A stretch of 64,000 nucleotides of DNA from Methylomonas sp. MK1. GTDB lineage: Bacteria; Pseudomonadota; Gammaproteobacteria; Methylococcales; Methylomonadaceae. The translations under genes were made by a program, and so were the position numbers. Location of the stretch: positions 2,418,001-2,482,000 of the forward strand of contig NZ_AQOV01000001.1 of NCBI RefSeq assembly GCF_000365425.1, in the 5' to 3' direction. The notes below the pieces were generated by a model. It searched no databases, was not told where the DNA came from, and worked only from the letters and a program-made list of their open reading frames with translations. This document shows positions 8,360-24,833 of the stretch, piece after piece (within the stretch, counting starts at the first letter, position 1; every line of letters starts with the position of its first letter).

Positions 8360-11101
8360 TTATTCTTCCGGCTCCACTGTAGGTGGTGTTTGATCCAGCG
8401 GCAAGGTAAAAATAAATACCGCCCCGCCGTCAGCGCGGTTACGCGCCACAATCCGGCCACCATGCACCTCTATGATAGCTCGACAGATTGCCAAGCCCAG
8501 GCCTACGCCACTTTGCGCGGTCTCATGACGGGTTTGGTAAAACTTCTCGAACAGCCGCTCTTCCTGGCCCTTGGGGATACCGGGACCGTGATCGGCAACC
8601 GCTATTTCCACCGAAGAATCGTTTATCTCGGCAACAATCTCCAAGCCGCTGCCTGGCGGTGTATAACGCACAGCGTTTTCCAACAGATTAATCAGCACCT
8701 GTTCGATCATCACCGCATCGGCCAGAATCATCGGTATGCCTTCCGGCAATTTGACTTTCACGGGTCTGCCCAGCAGTTGCGTGTGCAACAGCGTCAACAC
8801 CGTGCCGATGATTTCCTCGAGCGGATACCACTGCTTGTTCAATTCCAACACACCGGCTTCCAACCTGGCCATGTCCAGAATATTGTTGACCAGATTCGAC
8901 ATACGTTCCGCTTCGTCAACAATGCCTCGGCTCAGATCCAATTTATCTTGCGGTTGCAATTGGCCCTTGTCTTCCACCAGCGCACTGGCGGAGCCGATAA
9001 TCGTTGCCAACGGGGTGCGCAAATCATGGGAAATCGCGCTAAGCAGGGAGTTACGCAAGCGTTCGGCTTCCATTTGCAATTGGGTGGAACGGGCCTGTTC
9101 CGAAAAGCGTATCCGGGCCACCGCCTGGCCGATCTGGCGCAAAAAAGTTTCCAGTAGTTTCTGTTGCTCAGGTAGAAAAACCCGACGCAAATTGACCGGC
9201 AACAGCGCCAACACCCCTAACACTTTGTCTTCGTTATGAATCGGAAAATAAACCGCATCGGCGCCAGGCAAGGTGTTGGTACCATGCCCGGCAATTTCTT
9301 TGTGGTCGAATACCCATTGGGCAACACTCAGATCGGCGCCTCTTAATGACACGGCAATACCCGGCTTCCGGGGAAAAACCACCCGGCCATGACTATTGGG
9401 AAACAAGATCACATTGGGACTGCTGAATTCCGAGTACAGATGTTTGACGGCGATACGCACGGCCTCGTCTTCCGACTGGATGCTGCTCAACTCTTTACTC
9501 ATCGAGTACAGCGCCGCCGCCCGTCTTTCCCGATGCGCCGCTACTTTGGCCTGCGAACGAACGTTAATCATCAGGTTGCTGATGACGATACCGACCACTA
9601 GCATGGCCAGCAAGGTTATCAGGTACTGACTGTCGGACACGGAAAAACTGTAATAAGGCTGTACGAACAGAAAATCGAAACTACCGACGCCCAATAACGA
9701 TGCCAGAATAGACGGTCCGCGCCCGAAACGCGTGGCCACAAACACCACGCCCAGTAAATACACCATCACCAGATTGGCCAACTCAACATGACCGAGCAGC
9801 AAACGGCCGACGGCCGTGCTCAATAGGGTGACCGCCACAGCCCAGAAATAACCGCCGTAGCGTTTTTTAGTTTTGGTCGGTATGCGTTGCTTCAACCCCG
9901 GCAAAGAGGTCTTTCTTAGTAAGGATAACTCGGACTGTAATTCTGTGGTGCGCCCCCGGATTTGAGGGCTACCCAATAGATAAATATTGATGTTGTGAGC
10001 ATGTGCAATTAACACATCGACGACCGAACCCATTAGCCAGCGCCGCCAGCCCCGCCGACTCGGCTTGCCGATCACAATTTTATTGATGTTGCGCTCGCGG
10101 GAGAAACGGATCAGCGCCTCGCTCATCTCCGGTGCGCTGAGGGTAACGGTTTCGGCGCCGAGTTGTTCGGCCAAGCGTAAAATCCGCAAGATGCCGTCGC
10201 GCTTCACCGCCGGCATGCGTTGTAATTGCGGTGTTTCAACATACGCGACAATCCATTCGGCACGCAGACTAGTCGCCAAACGCTTACCGGCCCTTACTAA
10301 TCGCTCGGCCAAATCATTGGGGCCGATGCAAACCAAAATGCGTTCGCTGACCTGCCATACTTCGCGTATCGCATTGTCTTCGCGATAATCCAGCATCTGC
10401 GCGTCAACGCGATTGGCCGTTTGCCGCAAAGACAATTCTCGCAAGGCAATCAGATTACCTTTACGAAAGAAGTGATTGACCGCTTCCTGGGCTTGTTGCG
10501 GCAGATACACCTTGCCTTCTTTCAGGCGCAGCAACAATTCGTCCGGCGGCAAGTCCACCAGTTCCACTTCGTCGGCTTCTTCAAATACGGTATCGGGCAC
10601 GGTTTCCCAAACCCGTATGCCGGAAATCTGACCGATGTCGTCATTCAGGCTTTCCAGATGCTGCACATTGAGCGCTGTGTAGACATCAATACCGGCCTCT
10701 AGTAGTTCGTGTATATCCTGCCAACGTTTCGGGTGCCGGCAACCCGGCGCATTGGAGTGCGCCAACTCATCAACCAAAATGATGGCTGGCCGGCGCTTTA
10801 GCGCGGCATCGATGTCGAATTCCTGCAGCACGGTGCCTTTGTAATCGATCTTCCGGGGCGGCAGAATTTCCAGTCCATCCAGCAAGGCTTTGGTTTCCTT
10901 CCGACCATGGGTTTCCACGACACCAATAACCACGTCTAGGTTCTCGGAACGTCGCTCTCGCGCCGCCAATAACATCGCGAAGGTTTTGCCAACGCCGGCA
11001 GCAGCGCCGAAGAAAATCTTCAACCGGCCGCGTTTAGCTTTGGCCTGATCCCGCTCGACGCGGGCCAGGAGTTGGTCGGGATCGGGTCGTTCTGCATTCA
11101 T
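8360..11101 (-). CDS. kdpD: KdpD potassium-sensing histidine kinase, full length
   Basis: A 913-residue sensor kinase with every expected part: the N-terminal KdpD domain with Walker-type GAAAGVGKT (residues 32-40), a universal stress protein-like domain (about 250-370), four closely spaced membrane helices (DUF4118, about 410-510), a GAF-like region, the histidine kinase with His692 in SAISHDLRTPLA, and the ATPase domain with DHGPGIP and GVGLGLAICRA. It controls KdpE phosphorylation in response to K+ limitation or ionic stress. GGAAGG precedes the ATG. It lies downstream of the K+ channel gene on the same strand. Confidence 0.96.
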   Translation of the reverse strand: MNAERPDPDQLLARVERDQAKAKRGRLKIFFGAAAGVGKTFAMLLAARERRSENLDVVIGVVETHGRKETKALLDGLEILPPRKIDYKGTVLQEFDIDAALKRRPAIILVDELAHSNAPGCRHPKRWQDIHELLEAGIDVYTALNVQHLESLNDDIGQISGIRVWETVPDTVFEEADEVELVDLPPDELLLRLKEGKVYLPQQAQEAVNHFFRKGNLIALRELSLRQTANRVDAQMLDYREDNAIREVWQVSERILVCIGPNDLAERLVRAGKRLATSLRAEWIVAYVETPQLQRMPAVKRDGILRILRLAEQLGAETVTLSAPEMSEALIRFSRERNINKIVIGKPSRRGWRRWLMGSVVDVLIAHAHNINIYLLGSPQIRGRTTELQSELSLLRKTSLPGLKQRIPTKTKKRYGGYFWAVAVTLLSTAVGRLLLGHVELANLVMVYLLGVVFVATRFGRGPSILASLLGVGSFDFLFVQPYYSFSVSDSQYLITLLAMLVVGIVISNLMINVRSQAKVAAHRERRAAALYSMSKELSSIQSEDEAVRIAVKHLYSEFSSPNVILFPNSHGRVVFPRKPGIAVSLRGADLSVAQWVFDHKEIAGHGTNTLPGADAVYFPIHNEDKVLGVLALLPVNLRRVFLPEQQKLLETFLRQIGQAVARIRFSEQARSTQLQMEAERLRNSLLSAISHDLRTPLATIIGSASALVEDKGQLQPQDKLDLSRGIVDEAERMSNLVNNILDMARLEAGVLELNKQWYPLEEIIGTVLTLLHTQLLGRPVKVKLPEGIPMILADAVMIEQVLINLLENAVRYTPPGSGLEIVAEINDSSVEIAVADHGPGIPKGQEERLFEKFYQTRHETAQSGVGLGLAICRAIIEVHGGRIVARNRADGGAVFIFTLPLDQTPPTVEPEE

Positions 11102-11221
11102 CGTCGCCTTCCGGTGTTAGCTGCAAGTTGGATGTCGGTATAAAAAAGAGCTATCGCTGGTGGAAATTTAGCTCACGTATTTCTGATGGCGCAGCAGGAG
11201 TTCTGTTGTGTTCGAACCGCG

Positions 11222-11752
11222 TCATACCGACTCTTCAATTGCTTCGCCGATGGTCCGGCTAGCCGTTTTGGTATGGCCGGCATTGTTCACCAATAACTTT
11301 TGCAAGACTTCCATGCGCAGTTGCAATTGGGCCAATTCGTCGAGAATCAGCTCATGGCTACCTTGTAAACGGTTGCTCTCCGCTTCGCGTCCCAACGGAA
11401 GGCTACCCAAGATATCCTTATTTCTGCCGATTAAAGTCACCGAGACCAGTGCGGTGAACAACGAAAATAACACCATACCCAATAAAATCAATCCCGCCGC
11501 CAATACACGACCGAGAAACGATACCGGCACCACATCACCATAGCCGACATGAGTCATTGTTACCCAAGCCGACCAAATGCCATCCAGCGGCGAATGTATA
11601 TTGACGTCGATCAAAAATAGCAGCATGCCGACCGTCAAGGTCGCAGCCAACGCCAGCAGCATCAGGTAACCCAGATGTTTGGATTTGAACAGATCGGCGC
11701 GTAGGTGATTAGCCCAATGTAGCGCTTGATAAAAGTCGCTTATTCCACTCAT
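11222..11752 (-). CDS. two-helix potassium channel-like protein with HVGYGD filter
   Basis: A 176-residue protein with the TM1-pore loop-TM2 plan of a KcsA/Kch-type channel: helices near residues 25-50 and 85-110 flank TMTHVGYGDVVP. The selectivity-filter threonine of the usual TVGYG is replaced by histidine (codon at 11549-11551). The C-terminal ~60 residues are hydrophilic and helical. The reading frame is open to a TTG at 11788, but the ATG at 11752 is chosen because GAGAG lies just before it and the extension is hydrophilic and featureless. The gene is between an IS110-like ORF (48-base gap) and kdpD (120-base gap), and a KdpE-like box precedes the unit. Confidence 0.82.
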   Translation of the reverse strand: MSGISDFYQALHWANHLRADLFKSKHLGYLMLLALAATLTVGMLLFLIDVNIHSPLDGIWSAWVTMTHVGYGDVVPVSFLGRVLAAGLILLGMVLFSLFTALVSVTLIGRNKDILGSLPLGREAESNRLQGSHELILDELAQLQLRMEVLQKLLVNNAGHTKTASRTIGEAIEESV

Positions 11753-11800
11753 GATTTTTCTCTCGATATACGGACAGTGATTCTTCAAATAACGCCATGA

Positions 11801-12169
11801 TCAAATCATGCGTTCGGCGCAGCAGGCCAGCAGATAAGCGCGACGCGAATTCGCCTGAAATGCGGGCGCTGTCGATTCTGTTGGCAACCAATCCAGGTGC
11901 AGTCTTAAACCGGCATTGGACATCAACACCACTTCGACGCCAGCGATACCGCTGATATATTTCACTACTTCGAAAGCATGCGGATTCGTCGGGTTCAAAC
12001 AGATTTTCGGCCTGTCGCAACGTTCGTTAATGAAGCGCACCAAGGCTTCGAGTTCGGCGGGAGTATGCCCGTACGGTCTGGAAAAAATGCTTTTCCCCTC
12101 GCACCACAAAACCACTATCCACTCGTTTTTATCCGTGTTGTCGATACCTACGTAACTTCGCTCGTTCAT
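11801..12169 (-). CDS. short protein resembling the N-terminal domain of IS110-family transposases
   Basis: A 122-residue protein. The opening, RSYVGIDNTDKNEW, resembles the first strand and first catalytic aspartate of the RuvC/RNase H-like fold of IS110 (DEDD) transposases, and VEVVLMSNAGLRLHL resembles the later strand. Where transposases have the second acidic residue (E-[AG]-T-G), this protein has LNPTNPHAF, so that residue seems lost. There is no C-terminal transposase domain and no terminal repeats nearby. It may be a domesticated or degraded fragment. It lies 48 bases before the K+ channel gene and 78 bases after a KdpE-like box, so it is probably expressed. Function unknown; the assignment is by eye only. 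Confidence 0.5.
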   Translation of the reverse strand: MNERSYVGIDNTDKNEWIVVLWCEGKSIFSRPYGHTPAELEALVRFINERCDRPKICLNPTNPHAFEVVKYISGIAGVEVVLMSNAGLRLHLDWLPTESTAPAFQANSRRAYLLACCAERMI

Positions 12170-12246
12170 GGGTTACCCCTGGAGTTGAAAACGTCTACAG
12201 TTTATGAAAAAGCTCGTAAAAAGGTCGTTAATATTCAAAGCATAAA

Positions 12247-12263
12247 CATAAAGAAAATATAAA
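12247..12263 (-). promoter_or_regulatory. KdpE-like box A, upstream of the K+ channel operon
   Basis: Read on the minus strand this is TTTATATTTTCTTTATG: two TTTAT(A/G) 6-mers separated by 5 bp, so they repeat every 11 bp. The published E. coli KdpE target TTTATACTTTTTTTACA has the same 6-5-6 plan. A TTAACGACCTTTTTAC segment follows 14 bases later, in register with the other two copies, and could be the -35 region. The first downstream gene starts at 12169. Confidence 0.6.
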
Positions 12264-12665
12264 AATTCGCGGGATGAATGCTGAATTCAATGGTTTCTGG
12301 CATCCCAATTCGAAAAATCGACCAGCATGACGCCGTTGCCAATTCTTGAGGCGGCCTCCGGCCCGCGTCACATAGCCGAAACTTGTTAAGGGGAAGTCGG
12401 TACGACATCGATAGGTGGGGGCTTGGAGGTTATCCGCCTTGTTACGGTCTCCCCGAGCTAGGACTATTGAGGATTTAGACCTTCTTGACCTCTTTTCCAA
12501 AGGCCTAGGCGCGGATCACGCTCCTACGACTGTTTGCAAATCGGAAACAATGCGTTACACCGTGGTAGGCATATCTTAACGAAATCTTTATCTCGGAAAA
12601 TTTACTATTCCCTCGCGCCGAAATCAGTCCAAGCGATTTTTATAGCTCAAAAAAGCCCGTCAGTC

Positions 12666-12696
12666 TCGTTAATTTCAGAACTTATCGCATTAACGA
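12666..12696. promoter_or_regulatory. inverted repeat upstream of nhaD
   Basis: TCGTTAAT and ATTAACGA form a perfect 8-bp inverted repeat with a 15-base spacer, 80 bases before the nhaD start. It could be a dyad operator, for example for the response regulator encoded later in the same run, or an RNA hairpin. The only evidence is the symmetry and its position. Confidence 0.3.
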
Positions 12697-12775
12697 TTTC
12701 AGCCGTCAAAATATCCATTCATGCCTAATCGGCTTAAGTGGAAAGTGCGATCCTTTTTATTTATCGGCAAACCAA

Positions 12776-14242
12776 GTGAAAAAATCTCGGATTATCAGTT
12801 TCTATCAATTTATTCTATTAACGTTAGCACTCATTATTCCAGAGATAAGCTTTGCCCAAGAAACAGCTGCGGCAAATCAATTGGATTTGAAGGATCATTT
12901 CGTGGGTTACTTTGCGGTTGCAGTCACCGTTATCGCTTATATATTGGCGATGACGGAAGATTTACATCAATTGAGCAAGGCAAAACCGATGGTTTTAGGC
13001 TCGGCTTTAATTTGGTTTGCAATTTTTATTTATTATTCATCCGAATATGGAACGGCAAAAAATGTCGCCGCTGTTTTTCAAAGTAATTTAACGGCTTATG
13101 CGGAATTATTTCTGTTTATCACGGTGTCGATGACTTTTTTAAACTCCATGACAGAGCGGGGTATTTTCGATGCATTGCGTATTGTATTAGCCAATAAACA
13201 GTACAGTTATCGGCAATTATTTTGGATTACAGGTGTATTAGCCTTTTTACTGTCTTTGGTGATCAGCAGCTTAACGGTGGGCTTGCTGATGGGCTACATC
13301 ATCTTACAGATAGGAAAAGGCCAGCCCAAATTTGTGGGCTTAGCCGGCTTGAGCGCCGTGATCGCTGCCAATGCCGGTGGCACGATGAGCCCATTGGGAG
13401 GTATTTCTACATTTTTCGTTTGGCAACAGAATATGTTGCATTTTACTGATTTTTTTATTCTGACTATTCCGTGCATTGTGAATTTTTTTGTGCCGGCAGC
13501 GATTATGCACTTTGCTGTCAGCAAAGAAACGCCTAGTTTTTCTAAAGAAACCCCAGTTTTAAAACGCGGTAGCAAACGGATCATTTTTATATTTATCCTC
13601 ACCTTCAGCATAACCATTTTATCGAACGTCTTTCTTGATATGCCGGCAATAGCAGGGATGATATTTGGTTTAGCGTTATTGCAATTCTTTGCGTATTATT
13701 TAACTAAGTCTGAACATAAATCCGAAAGAATTCATCATTTTTTAACAGACCATGAAAAACAGGATTATATTGAATCGCAAAAAGGTTTCGATGTTTTCAA
13801 GTGTATAGCCGGCGTCGATTGGGATACTTTGTTATTTTTCTACGGCGCGATGATGATCGTTGGCGCACTCAGTTTCCTGGGTTATTTGGATGCAATGGCC
13901 CATTATTTGTTTACCCAAATTAGCCCGACCCTTGCCAACGTACTAATCGGTCTGTCATCGGCCTGTATCGATAATGGGACATTGATGTTTGCGGTGTTAA
14001 ATATGCATCCGCCTTTTCCGATGGGTCAATGGCTGTTATTGACACTGACATTGGGCGTCGGCGGTAGTTTGCTGGCGATCGGTTCGGCGCCTGCTCTGCA
14101 TGTCCTGGGATTGATGAAAGGCAACATGGAAGAAGGCGAAGGTTACACATTTACCCTTCATTTACGCTGGATGCCTGCCATCTTATTGGGTTTTATCGCC
14201 AGTATTTTCACCCTTTATATCATCAACGGCGGTCAATTCTAG
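12776..14242 (+). CDS. nhaD: NhaD-type sodium:proton antiporter
   Basis: A 488-residue inner-membrane protein with an N-terminal signal-like segment (about 1-27, ending SFAQE) followed by about twelve hydrophobic helices. The patches AANAGGTMSPLGGISTFF, ACIDNGTLMFAVL and LLAIGSAPALHVLGLM belong to the NhaD branch of the ion transporter superfamily. NhaD expels Na+ or Li+ in exchange for protons at alkaline pH. The start is a GTG; the reading frame is closed further upstream. It opens a plus-strand run with apbE, a sensor kinase and a response regulator, each separated by fewer than about 25 bases. Confidence 0.88.
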   Translation: MKKSRIISFYQFILLTLALIIPEISFAQETAAANQLDLKDHFVGYFAVAVTVIAYILAMTEDLHQLSKAKPMVLGSALIWFAIFIYYSSEYGTAKNVAAVFQSNLTAYAELFLFITVSMTFLNSMTERGIFDALRIVLANKQYSYRQLFWITGVLAFLLSLVISSLTVGLLMGYIILQIGKGQPKFVGLAGLSAVIAANAGGTMSPLGGISTFFVWQQNMLHFTDFFILTIPCIVNFFVPAAIMHFAVSKETPSFSKETPVLKRGSKRIIFIFILTFSITILSNVFLDMPAIAGMIFGLALLQFFAYYLTKSEHKSERIHHFLTDHEKQDYIESQKGFDVFKCIAGVDWDTLLFFYGAMMIVGALSFLGYLDAMAHYLFTQISPTLANVLIGLSSACIDNGTLMFAVLNMHPPFPMGQWLLLTLTLGVGGSLLAIGSAPALHVLGLMKGNMEEGEGYTFTLHLRWMPAILLGFIASIFTLYIINGGQF

Positions 14243-14267
14243 ACCTGAGCCCTTGCCGAACCCGGAA

Positions 14268-15275
14268 ATGAAAATGTTGTTTTCATTGTTACTATTGAGT
14301 CTGATTTTGCTGGGTTGCAGAGATACGCCGCGCGAGGCTGAAGTCTCCGGCGATGCCCAGGGGACGACTTATCACATTAAGCTAGTTTTAAACGAAGGCT
14401 CCGCTTCTTTGGAGGAAGTTAGCCATCAAATCACCGCGGTGCTGGCTGAAATAGACGCTCAAATGTCCAATTACCGGGAGGACTCTGAAATCTCGCGGCT
14501 GAACGGCCAAGAGAGCTCCGACTGGTTGTCGGTATCGCCGGAGATCGCCGGATTGTTAGCCATTGCCGATCAGGTTTATCGGCGCTCCGAAGGCTGTTAC
14601 GATCTGACGGTAAAACCGCTATTCGATCTTTGGGGATTTTCCAAACATGAAAACCGGGTGCCGACCGATCAAGAAATTGCCGAACTGATCCCGCATATCG
14701 GCATGCCCTTACTGGAAATCGATGCGGCCGGGCATCGGATCAGAAAAATAGACCCCAAACTCAAAATCGATCTATCTTCTATCGCCCAAGGATACAGCGT
14801 CGGCATGATTGCTCAGCGCCTGGATGCTCTAGGGATTGAACATTATCTGGTCGAAATAGGCGGCGAAATGCTGGTGAAAGGCCGCAAAGCGAATGGCGAC
14901 GATTGGCGTATCGGCGTCGAAATGCCCACATCCCCTACTCGGGATCTACAGAAAATCATCGACATCAAGGAAACGAAAGGCACAGCCATCATGACCGCCG
15001 GCACTTACCGGAATTTCTTTGAGGACCAAGGACAAAACTATTCTCATATCTTGAATCCAAAAACCGGCAAACCCGTGGACCATCATTTGCGTTCTGTGAC
15101 CGTCATTCACGACAATCCAACCTGGGCCGATGCATGGGATACTGCCTTGCTCTGTGTCGGTGAAAGCAAAGCCATGCAAATCGCCGAAGCTGAAAACCTG
15201 AGAGTGCTGTTGGTCTACAAGAACGACAACAAGTTAAAGGAATACACCAGCAAAGCCTTCGATGCTGCGCAATAG
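14268..15275 (+). CDS. apbE: FAD:protein FMN transferase (ApbE family lipoprotein)
   Basis: About 335 residues. An N-terminal lipobox, LILLGC within the first 20 residues, marks it as a lipoprotein facing the periplasm. The ApbE core follows: QMSNYREDSEISRLN, KPLFDLWGFSK, KIDLSSIAQGYSVG, EIGGEM and the metal-binding region TAGTYRNFF with HILNPKTGKPV. ApbE attaches FMN to threonine in Na+-NQR and Rnf subunits and other flavoproteins. A TTG at 14253 would add five residues; the ATG at 14268 is preferred. It lies 25 bases after nhaD. No FMN-binding target is encoded in this run. Confidence 0.92.
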   Translation: MKMLFSLLLLSLILLGCRDTPREAEVSGDAQGTTYHIKLVLNEGSASLEEVSHQITAVLAEIDAQMSNYREDSEISRLNGQESSDWLSVSPEIAGLLAIADQVYRRSEGCYDLTVKPLFDLWGFSKHENRVPTDQEIAELIPHIGMPLLEIDAAGHRIRKIDPKLKIDLSSIAQGYSVGMIAQRLDALGIEHYLVEIGGEMLVKGRKANGDDWRIGVEMPTSPTRDLQKIIDIKETKGTAIMTAGTYRNFFEDQGQNYSHILNPKTGKPVDHHLRSVTVIHDNPTWADAWDTALLCVGESKAMQIAEAENLRVLLVYKNDNKLKEYTSKAFDAAQ

Positions 15276-15287
15276 CCCGAACCTACA

Positions 15288-16835
15288 ATGATGAAGACCC
15301 GGCGCCAGGACATCGCAAAAGTTTTCGGCAATTTGCTGGTTAGCTTGGCTACGCCGCTGTTGTTGACCCTGCTCGATTGGCCGTTCAGACATGTCCTCAA
15401 GCCCAGCAATATTTTGTTGATTTATTTGCTGGGGGTGTTTTTTGTCGCCTTGCGTTTTGGCTTATGGCCGTCGATGTTGGCATCGTTGACCTGTGCCGGC
15501 GCCTTCGCCTATTTTTTTGCCCCGCCTATTTTTTCGTTTGCAATCGCCGATCAAGACAATCTGCTCGGCTTAGCCGTGATGTTGGTTATCGGCACCGTAA
15601 CCAGCAAACTCGCCGAAACCGTGCGTGTGCAGTCTCTCGCGGCGACATTAAGAGAAAAACGCGCCTCCGCGCTGTATCGATTAAGCAAGGAACTGGCAGA
15701 AGCCAGCTTGGAACGGGACATAGTCGAAATTGGCGTGCGCCACATCCATGCCGAATTCGGCGGCAAAAATACGCTACTGTTGGCCAATCGCGCTGGGGAA
15801 CTATCTTATCCAACGCAAACGATCTGGCCTATTTCCTTGCGCGGCACCAATTTGAACGTAGCGCGTTGGGTTTTTAGCCACGGTAAGAGCGCGGGCCATG
15901 GCAGCGACTATTTTGCCGAAGAGAACGCCGTTTACTTACCTCTCAAAGGCGCTATCCGCAGCATCGGCGTATTGGTTTTAGAGCTATCCGAAGCAGAGAA
16001 ACTCGCACAAGAGGAGCAACGCTTATTTTTGGATACGTTTATCGGCCAGATCGCAAATACCTTGGAAAGGGCTTATCTGGTCGAACAAACCAAGGAAGCC
16101 AGCTTAAAAATTCAATCCGAAACGCTGCGTAATTCCTTGTTGAGTAGTATTTCCCACGACCTCAGGACACCGTTGGCGACCATCGTCGCTGCTGCCAGCA
16201 CCCTGGAAACCGACAAAGAACGCCTGCCGGATAGCAGCCGAACAAACCTGGTAAGGACGATTAGCCGCGAAGCGCATCGCATGTCCGATCTGACCACCAA
16301 AATCCTGGAAATGGCGCGTTTGGAAGCCGGCGAAGTCATTCTCAATCGGCAATGGTACGAGCCGGAGGAGATCATCGGCAGCGCCTTACGCAGACTGGAC
16401 AAAAACCTAAAAGTGCGTCCGGTCAATATTCAAATCGCCAATAACCAGGCCCTGATCCATGTCGATGCGGTATTGCTGCAACAAGTCATCGTCAACTTGC
16501 TCGATAACGCTGACAAATATTCGCCAAGCGGCAAACCCATCGACATCTCGGTCGAAACCAGCGCGCAAGGCGTCGGCATTCAAATAGCGGACCGCGGGAT
16601 TGGCATCGGCAGCGGATACGAGGAAAAAATTTTCGATAAGTTTTTCCAAATTCATCCCGAAGGTGCACAAAGCGGCGTTGGTTTGGGGCTATCCATTTGC
16701 AGGGCCATTATCGAAGCCCACGGTGGGGAAATTACCGCTAGTCGCCGCCAAGGCGGCGGCTCTATTTTTCGACTCTGGCTGCCGTATTCCGAATGTCCTC
16801 CGACTATCGTCTTGGAAGAGAATGAAGGGGAATAA
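15288..16835 (+). CDS. KdpD-like sensor histidine kinase lacking the KdpD and USP domains
   Basis: A 515-residue kinase that corresponds to the C-terminal half of KdpD: a DUF4118 four-helix membrane region (about 15-110), a GAF-like domain (about 125-265), the phosphoacceptor His290 in SSISHDLRTPLA, and the ATPase domain with GVGLGLSICRA. The N-terminal Walker-type KdpD domain and universal stress domain of the full-length KdpD at 8360 are absent, and the start is a clean ATG with apbE ending 12 bases earlier, so this is a natural short form and not a broken gene. It abuts its response regulator and sits downstream of nhaD, which suggests sensing of sodium or alkaline stress. Confidence 0.88.
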   Translation: MMKTRRQDIAKVFGNLLVSLATPLLLTLLDWPFRHVLKPSNILLIYLLGVFFVALRFGLWPSMLASLTCAGAFAYFFAPPIFSFAIADQDNLLGLAVMLVIGTVTSKLAETVRVQSLAATLREKRASALYRLSKELAEASLERDIVEIGVRHIHAEFGGKNTLLLANRAGELSYPTQTIWPISLRGTNLNVARWVFSHGKSAGHGSDYFAEENAVYLPLKGAIRSIGVLVLELSEAEKLAQEEQRLFLDTFIGQIANTLERAYLVEQTKEASLKIQSETLRNSLLSSISHDLRTPLATIVAAASTLETDKERLPDSSRTNLVRTISREAHRMSDLTTKILEMARLEAGEVILNRQWYEPEEIIGSALRRLDKNLKVRPVNIQIANNQALIHVDAVLLQQVIVNLLDNADKYSPSGKPIDISVETSAQGVGIQIADRGIGIGSGYEEKIFDKFFQIHPEGAQSGVGLGLSICRAIIEAHGGEITASRRQGGGSIFRLWLPYSECPPTIVLEENEGE

Positions 16836-17537
16836 ATGAAAACCGATAAGCCCAGAATCTTGCTCATCGAAGACGATCCGCCTCTGCGTCAATTGTTGAC
16901 GACGACACTGGAGAATCAAAATTACGCCGTGTCGGCGTTCGCGAGCGGGCGAGAAGGGCTCAACGCCGCGCGCAACCAGCATCCCAGCCTGCTGATACTG
17001 GATTTGGGCTTGCCCGATCTCGACGGCCAGGAAGTCATACGCCGGTTACGTCTATGGTCGAAGTTGCCCGTCATTGTGCTGTCGGCACGCGATCAGGAAA
17101 ATGACATCACGCAGGCCTTGGATAACGGAGCCGATGATTATCTGACCAAGCCATTCGGCAACGCCGAACTGCTGTCGCGAATCAAAGCCTTGCTCAGGCG
17201 CGTGACTGCGCCCGCCGCTAATGAGCAGATGTCTTTCCAAGCCGGCGACCTAATAGTAGAACTGAGCAAACGCCGCTTGTTTGTCGGCGAACGCGAAGTG
17301 CATTTAACGCCACTTGAATTTCGCTTGTTGGCCGAACTGGTCCGCAACGCCGGTTTTGTCGTCACCCATCGGCAATTGCTGGAAAAAGTGTGGGGACCGA
17401 GCTATGTCGAACACAGCCACTATTTACGTATTTACATGGGGCAATTGCGCCATAAGCTGGAAGCCGACCCCACCCGCCCCCGCTATTTGCTAACCGAAGC
17501 GGGGGTTGGTTACCGCCTGAACGACGGGGAAAATTGA
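16836..17537 (+). CDS. KdpE-like OmpR-family response regulator
   Basis: A 233-residue regulator paralogous to the KdpE at 7637. The receiver domain has Asp13/Asp14, phosphoacceptor Asp56 in LDLGLPDLDG and the lysine in LTKPFGNAELLSRIK. The winged helix ends EAGVGYRLN. Its ATG directly follows the TAA of the kinase, so the two are co-translated and form a pair. The targets are unknown; nhaD in the same run is the obvious candidate. Confidence 0.9.
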   Translation: MKTDKPRILLIEDDPPLRQLLTTTLENQNYAVSAFASGREGLNAARNQHPSLLILDLGLPDLDGQEVIRRLRLWSKLPVIVLSARDQENDITQALDNGADDYLTKPFGNAELLSRIKALLRRVTAPAANEQMSFQAGDLIVELSKRRLFVGEREVHLTPLEFRLLAELVRNAGFVVTHRQLLEKVWGPSYVEHSHYLRIYMGQLRHKLEADPTRPRYLLTEAGVGYRLNDGEN

Positions 17538-17947
17538 TGTTGCGCTTGGGCCGGTGCGTTTGTCCGAACTGCGGAAGGGAAAACCATGGCGAGGGACGAT
17601 TAGGGACAACAAGCCAATGTCCATGCGGCTATGGGTTTTCCCAAGCGGCGCTGGATAAAATAAGACATTATTGGATATTTCAGATTTGCATTTGTTTTTC
17701 GCTGGCTGCGCTGTTCTTGTCTTTGGCGACATTTTTCGCAGTGCTGCCCGTCGATCCTTGGGAACGGTTCTTAAGTCCGATCCTGCAAGTTCCCGCTTTT
17801 ACAACTTTCGTAGTCAGTCATCACGTGTTGATTCGGCATAAACGAAACTCTGCCGGCGATGGGCAATTGTTACGCTATTTTGCTTGGGGCGTCTGCCTAA
17901 TGACTGTCGGTATTATTGCGTCATTGTTGAAAGCCAAATTGGGATGA
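17537..17947 (+). CDS. zinc-ribbon membrane protein of unknown function
   Basis: A 136-residue protein. The N-terminus has CVCPNCGREN followed by CPCGYGF, a four-cysteine zinc-ribbon pattern, then about three hydrophobic segments (near residues 45-70, 80-100 and 115-132). Its ATG overlaps the TGA of the response regulator (TGATG), so it is translationally coupled and belongs to the nhaD-apbE-kinase-regulator run. I do not recognise the family. A role in membrane-linked metal sensing or as an accessory of the two-component system is possible but not shown. Confidence 0.65.
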   Translation: MLRLGRCVCPNCGRENHGEGRLGTTSQCPCGYGFSQAALDKIRHYWIFQICICFSLAALFLSLATFFAVLPVDPWERFLSPILQVPAFTTFVVSHHVLIRHKRNSAGDGQLLRYFAWGVCLMTVGIIASLLKAKLG

Positions 17948-18022
17948 CTGGGCTTTAGGGCTTCTGATTAGCCGGTTATTTGCCGACTTGAGCACAGCCG
18001 TAGCCGTCCGATCAGAAGCTTA

Positions 18023-18316
18023 TCAATTCACTTCGAGCGATTGATCGCGAACAATTTGTCCGTTAGACAAGTCGCATATCACAGACCATTCCGCCCCGCC
18101 ACGCATCTGTATTTTGTAGCGAATCCAGAAGCTTTTCGGTTGCGGTAACACCCGTAATTCATCGATCAAACCCGGATGCAATCGCAGCGCTTCGTGTTGG
18201 CAAGTTTTTAGATGAACCTTACTTGGCGGTAAGGCATAGCTATCAGTTTTACCGACGTCGGCGTTAACGACTTGCACTGATGCAAGTAGCATTAGCCCGC
18301 TCCAACTTAATTTCAT
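18023..18316 (-). CDS. small secreted protein of unknown function
   Basis: A 97-residue protein beginning MKLSWSGLMLLASVQVVNA, a plausible signal peptide cleaved after VNA. The mature part contains two cysteines (LKTCQHE and SVICDLSNG) that could form a disulfide. The C-terminal part, FWIRYKIQMRGGAEWSVICDLSNGQIV, resembles the small periplasmic PepSY-like fold only loosely. The frame stays open upstream to 18478, but that extension runs through an intergenic palindrome and is not credible. It follows kdpC on the same strand by 185 bases, so it could be in the kdp transcript or separate. Confidence 0.55.
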   Translation of the reverse strand: MKLSWSGLMLLASVQVVNADVGKTDSYALPPSKVHLKTCQHEALRLHPGLIDELRVLPQPKSFWIRYKIQMRGGAEWSVICDLSNGQIVRDQSLEVN

Positions 18317-18331
18317 AACCCAGCCCGGTAG

Positions 18332-18358
18332 GATGCGGTAAACAGCGTGCACCGCATC
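18332..18358. repeat. REP-like intergenic palindrome
   Basis: GATGCGGT and ACCGCATC form a perfect 8-bp inverted repeat around an 11-base loop just upstream of the small secreted protein gene. Related GGATGCGGT...ACCGCATC units are common extragenic repeats in proteobacterial genomes. Confidence 0.5.
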
Positions 18359-18501
18359 GATCACGATTAGTGCGGTTCGTAACCTCACCCTACGCCTGCT
18401 TTTGGCAAGGACATTTGCCATTGACACTTTTGCCGGTTTTTGCCGCTCAACTTTGCCCATATAGGCCATCTTGTTCATGGATAACTCCCAGGCTGTATCA
18501 A

Positions 18502-19080
18502 CTAGCGGCCTGCTTGATCCAAGGCCAGATTCAACTTCAAGACGTTGATTCTAGGTTCGCCAAACACCAGCCATTGCCGGCCTTCGGTATGGGCATTGAC
18601 CAAGTCTTGCAACTTGGCTTCGTTGATTTTGCGCACCTTGGCGATGCGTTTGATCTGGTATTCCGCGGCGGCGATACTAATGTGCGGATCGAGACCGCTG
18701 CCGGAGGCGGTAATCAAATCCACCGGCACCGGCGCTTTATTGTCAGGATCGGCATCTTTTAAGGCTTGAATACGGGCCACGACGGCGTCGGTCAACGCCG
18801 GATTGGTCGGGCCCAGGTTGGAGCCGCTGGAGGCAGCGGCGTTGTAACTGTAGGGCCCGGTCGCCGACGGCCGGCTCCAGAAGTATTTCGGCTCGCTGAA
18901 GGTTTGGCCGATCAGTTCCGAACCAATCAGTTGGCCTTTGTCATCCTGGATCAAACTGCCGTTAGCTTGATCGTTAAACAGCATTTGGGCTAAGACAGTG
19001 ACCAGGGCCGGGTAAGCGGCGCCGGTGACCAAGGTCAACAGGAATAACATCATCGCTGCGGGTTTTAAATAGGTAGACAT
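18502..19080 (-). CDS. kdpC: potassium-transporting ATPase subunit KdpC
   Basis: A 192-residue protein with one N-terminal membrane helix (about 8-28) and a periplasmic domain containing the KdpC motifs GSELIGQTF, FWSRPSA, YNAAASSGSNLGPTNPAL and VPVDLITASGSGLDPHIS. KdpC stabilises the KdpA-KdpB complex. It is the last subunit gene, 9 bases after kdpB. The length is normal. Confidence 0.97.
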   Translation of the reverse strand: MSTYLKPAAMMLFLLTLVTGAAYPALVTVLAQMLFNDQANGSLIQDDKGQLIGSELIGQTFSEPKYFWSRPSATGPYSYNAAASSGSNLGPTNPALTDAVVARIQALKDADPDNKAPVPVDLITASGSGLDPHISIAAAEYQIKRIAKVRKINEAKLQDLVNAHTEGRQWLVFGEPRINVLKLNLALDQAGR

Positions 19081-19089
19081 ATTCGTTCC

Positions 19090-21189
19090 TTACACCAAAT
19101 TCATAGCAACCAAGACTAAATCAATCGCCTTGATACCGATAAACGGCACAATCAAGCCGCCGACACCATAGACCAGCAAGTTGTTTTGCAGCAGCTTTTC
19201 CGCCCCGACGGGTTGATATTTGATACCTTTCAAAGCCAATGGAATCAGGGCGATGATGATCAATGCATTGAAAATCACCGCCGACAGGATAGCGCTGGCT
19301 GGTGTCGCCAAGCCCATCACGTTCAGCACGTTCAAAGCCGGATAGGTAGTGGCGAAGGCCGCCGGGATGATCGCAAAATACTTGGCGACGTCGTTGGCAA
19401 TGCTAAACGTGGTTAATGCGCCACGGGTCATCAGCATTTGTTTGCCGGTTTCGACGATTTCGATCAGCTTGGTCGGATTGGAGTCCAAATCGACCATATT
19501 GCCCGCTTCCTTGGCGGCCTGGGTGCCGCTGTTCATCGCTACCGCGACGTCGGCTTGGGCCAATGCCGGAGCGTCGTTAGTACCGTCACCGGTCATCGCC
19601 ACCAAGCGACCATCGGTTTGGTGCTGGCGGATCAGGCTGAGTTTGGCTTCCGGTGTGGCTTCTGCCAAGAAGTCATCGACGCCGGCTTCGGCGGCGATGG
19701 CGGCGGCGGTCAGGCGGTTGTCGCCGGTGATCATGATGGTTTTGATACCCATCTGCCGCAGCTCAATGAAGCGCTCCTTGATGCCGCCCTTGACGATGTC
19801 TTTCAGTTCGATCACACCCAGGGCGCGCGTACCATCGGCGACGACTAGCGGCGTACTACCGCGACGGGCGACGTCGTCGACCAGCGTTTTCAATTCCGGC
19901 GGAAATTTGCCGCCTTGCTCTTCGATATGTTGTCTTATCGAGTCAGCCGCACCCTTACGGATTTGCCGGCAAGGCTCACCGATTTTGCATTCCTCTCCGG
20001 GTAAATTGACACCGCTCATCCGGGTTTGGGCGCTGAAATGCACGAAAGTGGCGCCCAAGGAGTGAATATCGCGTTCGCGAATACCGTATTTTTGCTTGGC
20101 CAAGATCACCACGCTACGACCCTCCGGGGTTTCATCGGCCATCGAAGCCAATTGCGCGGCATCCGCCAGCTCGCGATCCGTCACGCCTTTGACCGGAAAG
20201 AAACCGGAGGCTTGGCGGTTACCCAGGGTGATGGTGCCGGTCTTGTCCAGCAGCAGTACATCGACGTCGCCGGCTGCTTCTACGGCGCGGCCAGAGGTGG
20301 CGATAACGTTTTTCTGCATCATCCGGCCGATACCGGCCACACCAATGGCAGACAATAAACCGCCGATGGTGGTTGGAATCAAACACACCAATAAAGCCAC
20401 CAACACTGTGACGCTGATCGGGTTGCCGGTACCAGCGGTTTGCACGCTATACAACGAAAACGGCAGCAAGGTGACGGTCGCCATCAAAAACACCAGTGTT
20501 AACGCCACTAACAAAATGGTCAAAGCAATCTCATTGGGGGTTTTTTGCCGTTTGGCGCTTTCCACCATGCCTATCATGCGGTCGAGGAAGGTCTCGCCGG
20601 GATTGGTAGTAATGCTCACCACCAGCCAATCGGACAGCACCCTAGTTCCGCCGGTCACCGAACTGAAGTCACCACCGGATTCGCGGATCACCGGCGCGCT
20701 TTCGCCGGTAATGGCACTCTCGTCCACCGAGGCCACGCCTTCGATGACTTCGCCGTCGCCGGGCACGAAATCGCCGGCTTCGATCAAGACCACATCGCCT
20801 TTGCGCAGGCTGGAGCCTTCGACTTTGCTGTAATTGCTACCATATTTGGGTTCATCGAGCTTTTTGGCAGCAATGTCGCGCTTGGCGCTACGCAGGAACG
20901 CGGCCTGAGCCTTGCTGCGGCCTTCCGCCACCGCTTCGGCGAAGTTGGCGAACAATACCGTGAACCACAGCCACAGCGTGATGCTCAGAATAAATCCAGC
21001 CGATTCTTCGCTGTTGCCACTCAAGGCTTGCAGCCACAATACAGTGGTGAGCAAACTGCCCAAGTAGACCACGAACATCACCGGGTTTTTCCATTGCTGC
21101 TTAGGCGTGAGCTTGGCAAAAGCGTCTATGAACGCCTGTTGCAAAATTTGCGGATCCATTAAGGATGTTGAAACGGGTTTGCTAGTCAT
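19090..21189 (-). CDS. kdpB: potassium-transporting ATPase ATP-binding subunit KdpB
   Basis: A 699-residue P-type ATPase that drives K+ import with KdpA. Motifs are complete: the actuator TGES, the phosphorylation loop [13 protein letters not shown] (aspartate near residue 316), the hinge [32 protein letters not shown] and KdpB-specific membrane helices. Length fits the family (~680-700). There is a moderate insertion in the nucleotide-binding domain ([21 protein letters not shown]), with two cysteines. It lies between kdpA (19-base gap) and kdpC. Confidence 0.98.
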
Positions 21190-21208
21190 AGGATTACCTG
21201 TCCTGAAA

Positions 21209-23017
21209 TTATTGATGACCGATCATTTGCAAATGCTCGACGATAGGCCCCAAAGCCAGTGCCGGGACGAAGGTCAGTGCGCCGACCATCAACACAGTGA
21301 TGATTAATAAAACGGCAAACAATGGGGTATGAGTCGGCAGCGTACCGGGACCAACCGGCACAGTCTTTTTAGCCGCCAAGGAGCCGGCAATCGCCAATAC
21401 CGGAATCATCAACCAATAGCGAGAGAACAGCATCGCCAGACCCAGCATGAAGTTATAGAACGGTACGTTGGCTGACAGACCGCCAAAGGCGCTGCCGTTG
21501 TTGTTGCCCGCCGAGGAGTAGGCGTATAACACTTCGCTGAAACCATGGGCGCCGGGGTTGAAGATGGAGGCTTTGCCGGCGTCCAGCATCAGTGTCACTG
21601 CGGTACCGCCCAATACCATCAAAGGGGGTATCAGAATAATGATGGCGGCCATTTTCATCTCATAGGCTTCGATCTTTTTACCGAGGTATTCCGGGGTGCG
21701 ACCTATCATCAAGCCGGCGATAAACACCGCGACGATGGCAAACACGATCATGCCGTACAGACCGGAACCGACACCGCCAAAGATCACTTCACCCAATTGC
21801 ATCAGCCACATGGGTACCATGCCGCCGAGTGGCGTGAAGGAGTCGTGCATCGAGTTAACCGATCCATTGGAAGCGGCCGTGGTTGCCACCGCCCACAAGC
21901 CGGAGTTGACGATGCCGAAGCGCGCTTCTTTGCCCTCCATATTGCCGCCGGGCTGCTGTGCCGATACAGTTTGATCAACACCCAAGGCAGTTAACGCCGG
22001 GTTGCCGCTTTGCTCGGCCGGTACAGTGACAAAGATCAAGGCGACAAACACCAGCGTCATGGCACCCAATATCGTCCAGCCCTGGCGAGTGTCTCCCACC
22101 ATCAGCCCGAAGGTGTAGCACAGCGCGGCCGGAATCAGCAGGATCGCCAGCATTTCCAGAAAATTGGAAAGCGGTGTGGGATTTTCATACGGATGAGCGG
22201 AGTTGACATTGAAGAAACCGCCGCCATTGGTGCCCAATTGTTTAATAGCGATTTGCGATGCAGCAGGTCCCAATGCCAAGGTTTGTTGTTGCGTTTGCAG
22301 CGTTTCAGTCACCGGCTTGCCCTCGGCATCCAACAAGGCCTTACCGTCAGCATCCAATTTCGGCGCCGAGTAGCTGACTGTTTCTTGCAAATTAACCGTT
22401 TGGTAGGGATTAAAAGTTTGCACCACGCCTTGTCCGACCAATACCAGCGCCAACACCAACGACAACGGTAGCAGGATGTATAACGTACTGCGTGTCATAT
22501 CCACCCAGAAGTTACCGATGCTGTTGCTGTTACGGCGCACGAAGCCACGAATCAGAGCCACCAGTACCGCCATGCCGCTGGCGGCGGAGACAAAGTTTTG
22601 TACCGACAAACCCAGCATCTGGGTCAGATAACTCATCGTCGCTTCGCCGCTATAACCCTGCCAGTTGGTGTTGGTGGCGAAACTGACGGCGGTGTTGAAC
22701 GAAGAGTCCGGCGTCACAGCCGGCAGCGTTTGGGGGTTTAGCGGCAACACGTCTTGGAAACGTTGTAAGCAATAAACCGCCAACAAACCAAACAGATTGA
22801 ACGCCAGCATCGCCAGCGCGTATTGGGTCCAACGCATCTCTTGTTCGGGTTTGACGCCGCTCAGACGATAGAACAGTCGCTCAATCCCGGCGAACCAACG
22901 GTTCAATCCCACCGATTCGTCTTGATAAACCCGCGCCATATAAATGCCCAAAGGCTTGGCCAGCGCCACCAGGGCGATGACGTAAATAGCAATCTGTAAA
23001 AAACCTTGACCAGTCAT
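21209..23017 (-). CDS. kdpA: potassium-transporting ATPase potassium-binding subunit KdpA
   Basis: A 602-residue channel-like subunit with about ten membrane helices and the four K+-filter loops, for example [28 protein letters not shown] and [17 protein letters not shown]. The protein has a hydrophilic insertion of about 40 residues near 220-260 (ending [16 protein letters not shown]), a normal KdpA feature. Its ATG overlaps the kdpF stop, so the two are translationally coupled. Confidence 0.98.
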
Positions 23018-23106
23018 CAGAATTTCTCCGGATAAAACAACGCGACCAGTAAATAGACGAACACAGCAAGAGTCAGTCCTCCGCTCAAAAGATAAATCCA
23101 GCTCAT
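23017..23106 (-). CDS. kdpF: potassium-transporting ATPase small subunit KdpF
   Basis: A 29-residue single-helix protein beginning [11 protein letters not shown] and ending VALFYPEKF, the length and the terminal YPE(K/R)F pattern of KdpF, which stabilises the KdpABC complex in the membrane. Its TGA (23017-23019) overlaps the kdpA start. Its ATG in turn overlaps the stop of the 30-codon ORF upstream, so three consecutive genes are coupled by stop/start overlaps. Confidence 0.92.
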
Positions 23107-23195
23107 GATTGCCCCCTTAATGCTTCGCAACCAGCGATCAATAACGCCGTCGCGACAAAGAACGCCGCTGTTAATAGCAAATACACCATGTCCAT
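23103..23195 (-). CDS. 30-residue membrane ORF in front of kdpF
   Basis: The ORF starts [19 protein letters not shown] and ends CEALRGQS. It is essentially one membrane helix with a short tail containing a cysteine. A good ribosome binding site (AAGAGGT) precedes the ATG, and the TGA overlaps the kdpF ATG (ATGA). Small ORFs of this type (a helix followed by a G/R-C-E tail) occur directly before kdpF in many bacteria but are often not annotated. It could be an additional small subunit or assembly factor of Kdp. It is the first gene after KdpE-like box B. Confidence 0.75.
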
Positions 23196-23309
23196 CTACA
23201 TGACCTCTTGAAAAAAGTGAAAAAACTCAACCTTGCAATCGCCCCTGATCGCCAGTTAAACAATGTACAGATTGATCGATAAAAAAGTCGTAAAAATATC
23301 CATGCCCGA

Positions 23310-23326
23310 TATAAAGGAAATATAAA
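23310..23326 (-). promoter_or_regulatory. KdpE-like box B, kdpFABC promoter
   Basis: Read on the minus strand this is TTTATATTTCCTTTATA, with two TTTATA 6-mers 5 bp apart, the plan of the E. coli KdpE site. Thirteen bases further, TTTTTACGAC begins a likely -35 region, and TGTACAT about 17 bases later could be the -10. The first ORF of the kdp operon starts at 23195. This is the copy expected from the known biology of kdp and so anchors the assignment of boxes A and C. Confidence 0.75.
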
Positions 23327-23364
23327 AATAAATGTAGCCGAAACTGTGGACAGATTTTCAGGAC

Positions 23365-23395
23365 AAAAAAGGCCCCTTCACCTAGGAAAAGGGGC
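23365..23395 (-). terminator. Rho-independent terminator upstream of the kdp promoter
   Basis: On the minus strand, GCCCCTT and AAGGGGC pair around a 10-base loop and are followed by C and six T. It would end the transcript that starts near box C and so insulates the kdp promoter. Confidence 0.8.
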
Positions 23396-23500
23396 AGAGG
23401 TCAATCCGCAGTGTTGCTGCTGACCGACAAGCAGGAGCCAACATGAAATCAGGAACGTGAAACCTGTGTTCCAGGTGAAAAGCAGTTTGTGATCAAGCCA
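23396..23500 (-). ncRNA. structured 3' region, candidate small RNA
   Basis: Between the 53-residue membrane protein gene and the terminator are two more hairpins on the minus strand: ACCTG/CAGGT at 23462-23476 and GGTCA.CAG/CTG.TGACC at 23399-23425. Together with the terminator they give three consecutive stems and no ORF. This could be a long structured 3' UTR or a small RNA, either processed from the mRNA or transcribed separately. It does not match a known RNA family by eye. The 5' limit is a guess. Confidence 0.4.
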
Positions 23501-23767
23501 GACCACCATCAATAACCTGTGAATTGTTGTGATGTTTACGTGATCATCCCCAACGCTGTCACGCCCCTAACTGCTGCCATGAATAGCAAAAAAACGATAT
23601 TTACTCGCAATACCTATTTTTGAAAGTTAATAAGGCGCTCTGCTAAGTGATCTGGTCCCGCCTATTAAAATAGCCTTCAATGAATTGATTACGAGAAAGC
23701 TTGCCGCGGCAATGCTGTTACCAAATGGCATTACCTAAGGGTTAACGATGTTGAGCATGACTAGAAG
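23501..23767. other. non-coding stretch downstream of the small membrane protein gene
   Basis: I see no gene here. Both strands contain frequent stops and no ribosome binding site with a plausible ORF. On the minus strand it would be the 3' part of the small-membrane-protein transcript. Confidence 0.5.
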
Positions 23768-23929
23768 TCAAGCGCGGAGCGATGAACCGAAATCGAGATT
23801 ACTGGAGATGCTAGCCAGACAAAACAGCATGGTAGAAATAATGAATTCGCCGGACATAAACACAAACATACCCGCTGTAAAGGTAATGCCGGTAAAAATG
23901 TCTCTGTATAAATTGTTCGATTTGTTCAT
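23768..23929 (-). CDS. 53-residue membrane protein behind a KdpE-like box
   Basis: Starts MNKSNNLYRDIFTGITF and ends LDFGSSLRA, with hydrophobic residues from about 11 to 42, enough for one long or two short helices. AGGGGG lies five bases before the ATG. The frame is open to 23971, but the extension has no ribosome binding site and is glycine-rich and hydrophilic. About 170 bases upstream is KdpE-like box C in the right orientation, and a terminator follows downstream. I do not recognise the protein. A K+-stress-induced membrane peptide is the simplest reading. Confidence 0.55.
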   Translation of the reverse strand: MNKSNNLYRDIFTGITFTAGMFVFMSGEFIISTMLFCLASISSNLDFGSSLRA

Positions 23930-24382
23930 TTTGCCCCCTAAAGGACCACCGCCGTCGATAATAGAACACAATGTTCATCGATAGCAGTTAGTAAAATATA
24001 AAACGTATCCCTTCACCGATTTAAGCAATTGTCCTTAATTGCATGTTGCTTAATTTACAGAAAGACGAATAAAAAGATCGTAAAAATCAGTAGCTTGCTT
24101 ATAAAGAGAATGTAAAATTTGATTGACTGCTGTGTTCTTTGCCTACCAATGCCAATAAAACCGTTCGCCTAGTTCGCGTGTACCCGATTGAAATTTAGGG
24201 CATGAATTTTTGGACTTCGACTCTTGGGTTGTTGGCAGAGTCGCAGAGCATATGGTCCTGGAGAGAGTGAAATAGAGTCTTGAATATGCCGAAATGGCCG
24301 ATCCGAGGCATTCAAAATCTAGCTGCCTTTGTATCGGAATGGGTGACGGGTTTTATCGCAACCGGTATCAACAAGCGAAAAA
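23930..24382. other. intergenic region with KdpE box C; no gene seen
   Basis: The region carries box C and the leader of the small membrane protein on its left side, and the 3' flank of rseC on its right. No ORF of family resemblance, tRNA or clear terminator was found for the nif operon ending at rseC. Confidence 0.5.
24100..24116 (-). promoter_or_regulatory. KdpE-like box C, upstream of the 53-residue membrane protein
   Basis: Read on the minus strand this is TTTACATTCTCTTTATA, two 6-mers 5 bp apart. Exactly as at box B, 13 bases follow and then TTTTTACGA, with TGTAAAT about 17 bases later. The parallel spacing to the kdp promoter over some 60 bases, while the spacer sequence differs, argues for conserved promoter architecture and not for a recent duplication. 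Confidence 0.65.
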
Positions 24383-24823: not shown

Positions 24824-24833
24824 GGCTCGCCTA

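Follow-up and report, generated by a model that had tools for sequence, protein, structure and literature searches.

A candidate three-promoter KdpE regulon around the kdp genes of Methylomonas sp. MK1

The kdp genes of Methylomonas sp. MK1 lie in a 64,000-nucleotide stretch of contig NZ_AQOV01000001.1 (the window hereafter; the genome comprises 5,233,591 bases on five contigs) that contains three similar putative promoters, A, B and C. Promoter A precedes a putative operon for a 122-amino-acid (122-aa) protein, a K+ channel and the two-component system KdpDE, promoter B precedes the pump genes kdpFABC, and promoter C a gene for a 53-aa membrane protein. We propose that KdpE very probably controls the pump, the channel/kdpDE operon and the small membrane protein via one promoter design. 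A three-promoter KdpE regulon had been suggested by a first-pass annotation made from the letters of the window, and this reading is supported by an independently trained matrix, recurrence in relatives, agreement with the E. coli layout and the retention of KdpE DNA-contact residues. Given this agreement, we are confident, short of certainty, that KdpE drives transcription from A, B and C as a single regulon, by the mechanism proposed below. A larger regulon would depart from the common view of KdpE as a response regulator with one target.

Boxes, proximal repeats and -10 elements

The first-pass annotation placed three 17-base-pair (bp) boxes of 6-5-6 layout on the minus strand, and their positions, strand and letters proved right throughout. 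Each box consists of two half-sites starting with TTTA, 11 bp apart, as do the half-sites of the E. coli KdpE operator in the accessible text of PMC3264566. In a scan of the whole genome with their joint consensus, TTTAYATTYYCTTTATR, only A, B and C matched exactly, all within 12 kb around kdp. Because TTTAYATTYYCTTTATR was built from these boxes, the result lies in the absence of other exact matches and not in their own. One further match has one mismatch and 11 have two, giving 15 in all. At low stringency the boxes are unimpressive, with four matches in the window at up to three mismatches where 1.32 would be expected; four were also reached in 5 of 100 shuffles. What stands out is exactness and clustering. 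The 12 weaker matches in the genome were dropped, as in none of their 3-kb loci does the full matrix described below exceed 1.1.

The 17-bp box is only part of a longer conserved site. An ungapped alignment of A, B and C runs from the box through 13 bases, TNTTNACGA, two bases and a T run to TAnnnT at positions 59-64 from the box start. The 13-base distance to TTTTTACGA, previously noted for B and C, holds, and A joins them if TATTAACGA is accepted. A -10-like element is likewise present, but its earlier placement at TGTA(C/A)AT is better shifted 2 bases downstream, to TAAACT (A), TACATT (B) and TAAATT (C) at position 59. Starting 32 bp from the box start there is a second 6-5-6 direct repeat, TTTACG-N5-TTTAYN, followed by TAnnnT. 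Half-sites therefore start at 0, 11, 32 and 43, approximately multiples of the helical turn, with 10 bases between the end of the last and the -10. As the second repeat and TAnnnT stand at fixed distances, the full KdpE site may take two dimers, the box forming its distal half. The promoter elements are as follows, with the start of A placed by the E. coli layout.

12247..12263, minus strand: box A, distal direct repeat TTTATA-TTTTC-TTTATG
12215..12231, minus strand: promoter A, proximal repeat TTAACG-ACCTT-TTTACG (proximal matrix 11.6, weak alone)
12199..12204, minus strand: promoter A, -10 TAAACT (predicted start near 12192)
23310..23326, minus strand: box B, distal direct repeat TTTATA-TTTCC-TTTATA
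23278..23294, minus strand: promoter B, proximal repeat TTTACG-ACTTT-TTTATC (proximal matrix 56.3)
23262..23267, minus strand: promoter B, -10 TACATT (predicted start near 23255)
24100..24116, minus strand: box C, distal direct repeat TTTACA-TTCTC-TTTATA
24068..24084, minus strand: promoter C, proximal repeat TTTACG-ATCTT-TTTATT (proximal matrix 39.1)
24052..24057, minus strand: promoter C, -10 TAAATT (predicted start near 24045)

The kdpF promoter of E. coli MG1655 shares this layout: a 6-5-6 distal repeat (TTTATA-N5-TTTACA), a 13-base gap to TTTTTRCGA, a degenerate proximal repeat (TTTGCG-AAATC-TTTGCA) and TACCCT at 59-64, all at the same distances. With the E. coli box starting at -71, TACCCT would be the -10 of that promoter. 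The fixed double-repeat layout makes a precise and inexpensive test feasible in E. coli K-12 itself.

For an independent matrix we considered 30 kdpA loci of the genus and defined an in-register site as at least 17 of 21 fixed positions upstream of kdpF, which 23 of the loci have. One locus (L099) that reaches 17 with its match shifted onto the proximal repeat was excluded by hand. Omission of Methylomonas sp. MK1 itself and the near-identical G011 left 21 sites, and 15 remained for training after removal of kdpF promoters at least 90% identical. The full matrix ranks B (97.3), C (60.6) and A (38.9) as the top three of the window, with the fourth at -9.7, and gives 30.8 to E. coli kdpF, the best score of its 12-kb locus. 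Maxima over 6 million simulated positions were 6.5 with window dinucleotides and 16.3 in AT-rich sequence. The score of B is flattered, since a consensus guided the choice of training sites and some of these are closely related to B; A and C were absent from training, although A, B, C and E. coli had already been seen when the consensus was made.

Recurrence of the sites in relatives

The same site stands at the same genes in some relatives, with the misses given below. Allowing at most one mismatch, a 39-bp pattern of the site matches in 13 of 61 genomes. The 60 genomes other than that of Methylomonas sp. MK1 hold 18 matches, of which 11 precede kdpF, three the 53-aa gene, two the 122-aa/channel operon and two the Na+/H+ antiporter gene nhaD, and none is found elsewhere than before these four gene types. 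The 53-aa gene lies near kdpF in five of the 30 kdpA loci (MK1, G011, G008, G005 and G034), and all five carry promoter C (scores 45.8 to 60.6).

The 122-aa gene occurs in six of 37 genus genomes and at five loci of named assemblies (G008 and G023 being repeated), that is, in nine genomes. Five of the nine have the full site of promoter A at a score above 10 (MK1 38.9, G011 38.9, G008 40.8, L220 18.4 and L221 16.0). The last two are distant metagenome-assembled genomes with 58% identity in the 122-aa protein, and recurrence there speaks against a local accident. L220 has no channel match between the 122-aa open reading frame (ORF) and kdpD. The site thus accompanies the 53-aa gene in four other genomes and the 122-aa/kdpDE operon in four genomes other than MK1, one of these four without the channel; the near-identical G011 is counted in both sets.

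Several observations weigh against such a regulon. Seven of the 30 kdpA loci (L082, L091, L092, L093, L099, L100 and L103) are not counted; besides L099, five score 13 to 16, among them the partial gene of L103, and one scores 15. The reversed control of TTTAYATTYYCTTTATR gives 18 matches in the genome at up to two mismatches against 15 real ones, so the weaker box matches carry no meaning, and the reversed 39-bp pattern finds 7 matches in the 61 genomes, which makes hit counts alone weak and gene context decisive. Upstream of the 122-aa gene, four of the nine genomes lack the full site: G023 (13.5) and G022 (11.9) have the proximal repeat only, L222 has a proximal-like stretch by eye and G019 nothing clear. 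The score of L221, 16.0, does not exceed the AT-rich simulation maximum. Within operon A, 120 bases separate the channel and kdpD ORFs. In addition, the E. coli KdpE element and footprint span -72 to -50 in the accessible text of PMC3264566, leaving the proximal repeat outside. Finally, the proximal half alone is weak in A (11.6) and E. coli (4.9), and since shuffled upstream DNA reaches up to 11.8 with the proximal matrix, the repeat is credible in these two by register only.

Outside the genus, a strict double pattern yielded 3 matches in 368 other genomes of the class and 2 in the reversed control, which proves nothing; one match lies before kdpA, one after kdpDE and one without a window-protein match. 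A genome of another family of the class (G128, locus L215) has two 6-5-6 repeats at the same spacing (approximately 2621-2720) just after kdpDE-like genes and before another ORF.

Regulators, operon A and small proteins

In order of increasing coordinate, a minus-strand group (kdpE2, kdpD, the K+ channel and the 122-aa ORF) is followed by a plus-strand group (nhaD, apbE, a truncated kdpD and kdpE1) and a second minus-strand group (kdpCBAF, a 30-aa ORF and the 53-aa gene). The window thus encodes two KdpDE pairs, the second downstream of nhaD. No Rfam match at gathering cut-offs was obtained in 7000-25000.

7637..8335, minus strand: kdpE (KdpE2), best solved match E. coli KdpE 4kny
8360..11101, minus strand: full-length kdpD (KdpD, Usp, DUF4118, GAF, HisKA and HATPase)
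11222..11788, minus strand: K+ channel (Ion_trans_2), selectivity filter VGYGD, listed ORF start TTG
11801..12169, minus strand: 122-aa ORF, IS110 DEDD-transposase-like, first gene of operon A
12576..12592, plus strand: proximal-type repeat before nhaD, TTAACG-AAATC-TTTATC, with TACTAT at 12603-12608 (not above shuffles)
12776..14242, plus strand: nhaD, Na+/H+ antiporter
14253..15275, plus strand: apbE
15288..16835, plus strand: truncated kdpD, KdpD and Usp domains not found
16836..17537, plus strand: second kdpE (KdpE1)
18502..23195, minus strand: kdpC, kdpB, kdpA and kdpF, with the 30-aa ORF upstream of kdpF
23372..23395, minus strand: terminator-like hairpin between the 53-aa gene and promoter B
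23768..23929, minus strand: 53-aa small hydrophobic (membrane) protein, one of nine matches in the genome

KdpE2 is 56% identical to E. coli KdpE. The DNA-contact residues R193, R200 and T215 given for the latter in the accessible text of PMC3264566 are invariant in eight aligned KdpE-like proteins (E. coli included) and are accompanied by a receiver and a winged helix, with the solved-structure comparison covering KdpE2. NF007820 is the best family for KdpE2 and KdpE1, although both miss its equivalog cut-off of 325 bits, the former just (319.5) and the latter well (271.5). The protein encoded at 8360-11101 has all four parts expected of KdpD, namely the KdpD domain, Usp, DUF4118 and a histidine kinase, and scores 1036.8 against the NF007793 equivalog cut-off of 1123 bits (truncated KdpD, 390.7). 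We take the sub-cut-off scores of KdpE2 and KdpD to reflect distance and not another function.

We hypothesise that upon K+ shortage full-length KdpD (8360-11101) phosphorylates KdpE2 (7637-8335), which would then bind two in-phase direct repeats, distal (half-sites 0 and 11) and proximal (32 and 43), the latter as a second dimer site. The proximal repeat would replace the -35 element and RNA polymerase would be recruited to TAnnnT at 59-64. This would jointly activate the 30-aa ORF and kdpFABC from B, the 122-aa ORF, channel and kdpDE from A, and the 53-aa protein from C, all in response to K+, and promoter A would create a positive feedback loop on kdpDE.

Co-transcription of operon A would be expected under this mechanism. 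From the end of the 122-aa ORF to the TTG at which the channel ORF is listed to start there are 12 bases, and no terminator-like site was found on the minus strand in the 120-base gap between channel and kdpD. If co-transcribed, KdpE2 would raise its own level, and because operon A contains kdpD and kdpE, promoter A would in part be plain autoregulation. Autoregulation is also suggested by seven of 30 kdpD loci (G021, G002, G035, G007, G012, G005 and G034) in which kdpDE lies apart from kdpFABC and kdpD is preceded by a proximal repeat and -10, scoring 27.8 to 42.3 versus shuffle maxima of at most 6.5. Two other kdpD loci are weakly above shuffles (9.2 and 6.4), and 21 are not.

The channel has an Ion_trans_2 pore and a VGYGD filter like KcsA/Lmo2059-type K+ channels, with Lmo2059 as best solved match, but differs from these in being linked to KdpDE behind a KdpE-type promoter. 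A regulon with a channel raises the question of why one should be opened when K+ is scarce; our guesses are that the membrane potential drives a K+ leak inward through it, or that it lets K+ out again when Kdp overshoots. The 122-aa protein falls short of an IS110 transposase, as its DEDD domain scores 19.1 bits against the Pfam cut-off of 29 and the protein, at 122 aa, is shorter than a full-length transposase. Twelve of the 14 members of its family match PF01548 at E 0.01 or better, and an ACCAE motif near the end is invariant in the 14 when aligned. The stand-alone gene sits before kdpDE, mostly with the channel, and its product looks like a domesticated, probably inactive transposase piece. 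The 30-aa ORF (23103-23195, minus strand), located between promoter B and kdpF and recognisable in 18 of the 30 genus kdpA loci, may encode an extra small Kdp subunit.

The protein encoded behind promoter C, annotated previously as an unknown membrane peptide, is small and hydrophobic and belongs to a multicopy family. Five of its eight paralogues in the genome were inspected by eye (L210, L211, L212, L213 and L214). TTGT(A/T)AA and TATAGT lie upstream of all five, and a GTTTC..GAAAC inverted repeat is clear in three and partial in two. The kdp-linked copy has a KdpE-type site in their place, which looks like a capture through exchange of promoters.

Neither KdpE boxes nor KdpE autoregulation is new, whereas the enlarged regulon with channel operon and membrane peptide, together with the second repeat, is a candidate new part. 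In E. coli, kdpFABC has been called the sole KdpE target in the accessible text of PMC7657598, where 31 ChIP-exo (chromatin immunoprecipitation with exonuclease) peaks upstream of 37 genes are mostly classed as potentially spurious; Methylomonas, by contrast, has three conserved promoters, one of them at a channel operon. S. aureus KdpE similarly acts on the promoter of its own genes, binding the kdpFABC and kdpDE promoters, while no such binding is given for M. smegmatis (both from the accessible text of PMC5401905). Unlike in S. aureus, Methylomonas kdpDE follows the 122-aa ORF and a K+ channel in one gene run. KdpE is not mentioned in the main text of PMC8041468. In the accessible literature on KdpE regulons, channels and DNA sites, the kdpFABC promoter, KdpDE autoregulation, KdpE in methanotrophs, and nhaD in relation to KdpE or two-component systems, a scope outside which most subscription papers lie, we recognised no description of this regulon or of the second repeat.

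The arrangement also resembles the pho box of PhoB, from the OmpR/PhoB family, in which direct repeats of 11-base period overlap the -35 region and end approximately 10 bp before the -10. The promoters described here differ in their TTTA half-site and an extra distal repeat about three turns upstream.

nhaD promoters and competing explanations

The product of 12776-14242 scores 402 bits with NF038006 (cut-off 80) but remains below the cut-off of the older TIGR00775 (267.2 of 577.1). Searched for the proximal repeat together with the -10, one mismatch being allowed, the Methylomonas sp. MK1 genome returned A, B, C, a site on contig C2 73 bp before an nhaD paralogue, and C3:110370, with none in the reversed control. 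C3:110370 was set aside, having neither a distal box nor a clear gene context. Across the 37 genus genomes, the nhaD form of the repeat has 23 matches in 21 genomes, and in 19 cases an nhaD match lies 64-167 bp downstream; the reversed control gives 0, and one extra base before the -10 takes the 23 to 0. Taken one by one, 18 of 30 nhaD loci score above 100 shuffled versions of their respective upstream DNA. The other 12, which do not, include the window nhaD (4.4 versus shuffles up to 10.2), whose site is therefore suggested only by likeness to orthologues.

Nine hand-chosen nhaD regions were inspected. As in the window, nhaD is followed by a truncated kdpD and kdpE in four (MK1 C2, G005, G032 and G004). 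Such a pair is divergent from nhaD in G008 and G015, full-length kdpD and kdpE lie further downstream in G022 (L178) and G019, and no KdpD/KdpE pair adjoins nhaD in a second G022 region (L183). In a KdpE tree, seven nhaD-linked KdpE proteins form a separate group (100/98), and the KdpE proteins of G008 and G015 group with the kdp/channel type. An in-register distal box at nhaD occurs only in G008 and G015 (full matrix 30.9 and 48.3). None of the seven other nhaD promoters has one, and three (MK1 C2, G004 and G022) have a proximal signal, meaning a score above shuffles or a pattern match. Although the cases are few, this link between regulator type and promoter type is the strongest argument for assigning A, B and C to KdpE2.

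How nhaD relates to the kdp promoters is finely balanced. We lean slightly towards a general OmpR/PhoB-type grammar as all that the two share, with nhaD in a separate Na+/pH regulon. The nhaD repeats differ in detail (TTTACGCCnTTTTTAC), 28 of 30 nhaD loci lack an in-register distal box and seven of nine nhaD-linked KdpE form their own clade, but two genomes have a full kdp-type site at nhaD. Somewhat less probably, a single K+/Na+ grammar of two in-phase dimer sites, the second unrecognised even in E. coli, would serve uptake, channel, peptide and nhaD in Methylomonas, with KdpDE copies recruited to nhaD at least twice and several sensors lacking the KdpD and Usp domains. The copies linked to nhaD suggest a way in which a two-component system, once duplicated, may have been re-aimed from K+ to Na+.

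A serious though not favoured alternative concerns the proximal repeat, namely that the distal box alone binds KdpE and the proximal stretch is a fixed core promoter, as a -35 or A+T-rich element. This would agree with the E. coli footprint and minimal binding site, which cover the distal repeat only in the accessible text of PMC3264566, and with the weak proximal halves of A and E. coli. Against it, the proximal stretch itself reads TTTACG-N5-TTTAYN, and in B and C its half-sites are in helical phase with those of the distal box. It also persists where no in-register distal box is present, before kdpD in seven genomes and before many nhaD genes, and a single extra base between it and the -10 abolishes all nhaD-type matches.

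The boxes could also be read by KdpE1 (16836-17537), or by KdpE1 and KdpE2 through cross-talk, since KdpE1 keeps the same DNA-contact residues and its gene is located between the boxes. We consider this unlikely, as none of seven nhaD genes linked to nhaD-clade KdpE has an in-register distal box and the two nhaD promoters with one (G008 and G015) adjoin KdpE of the kdp/channel clade. Moreover, G011 has A, B and C with no close copy of the window nhaD (best 55%), KdpE1 not having been searched there. Chance similarity of A+T-rich intergenic DNA, to which the 15 real versus 18 reversed matches at up to two mismatches might point, was rejected as refuted for practical purposes by the uniqueness of the exact matches, scores well above those of 6 million simulated positions and recurrence at the same genes.

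Three further nhaD-type arrangements were observed. In L178 (G022), nhaD, kdpABC, apbE, full-length kdpD and kdpE form one run behind an nhaD-type promoter, a possible ancestor of the nhaD-apbE-kdpD'-kdpE operon in the window. L217 (G028) has an nhaD-type repeat near 3566 before an ORF that looks DedA-like, and another 587 bp upstream of an nhaD match. In L199 (G006), an nhaD-type promoter precedes kdpD/kdpE-like matches; the 3 kb retrieved contain no nhaD match, which would fit a loss of that gene.

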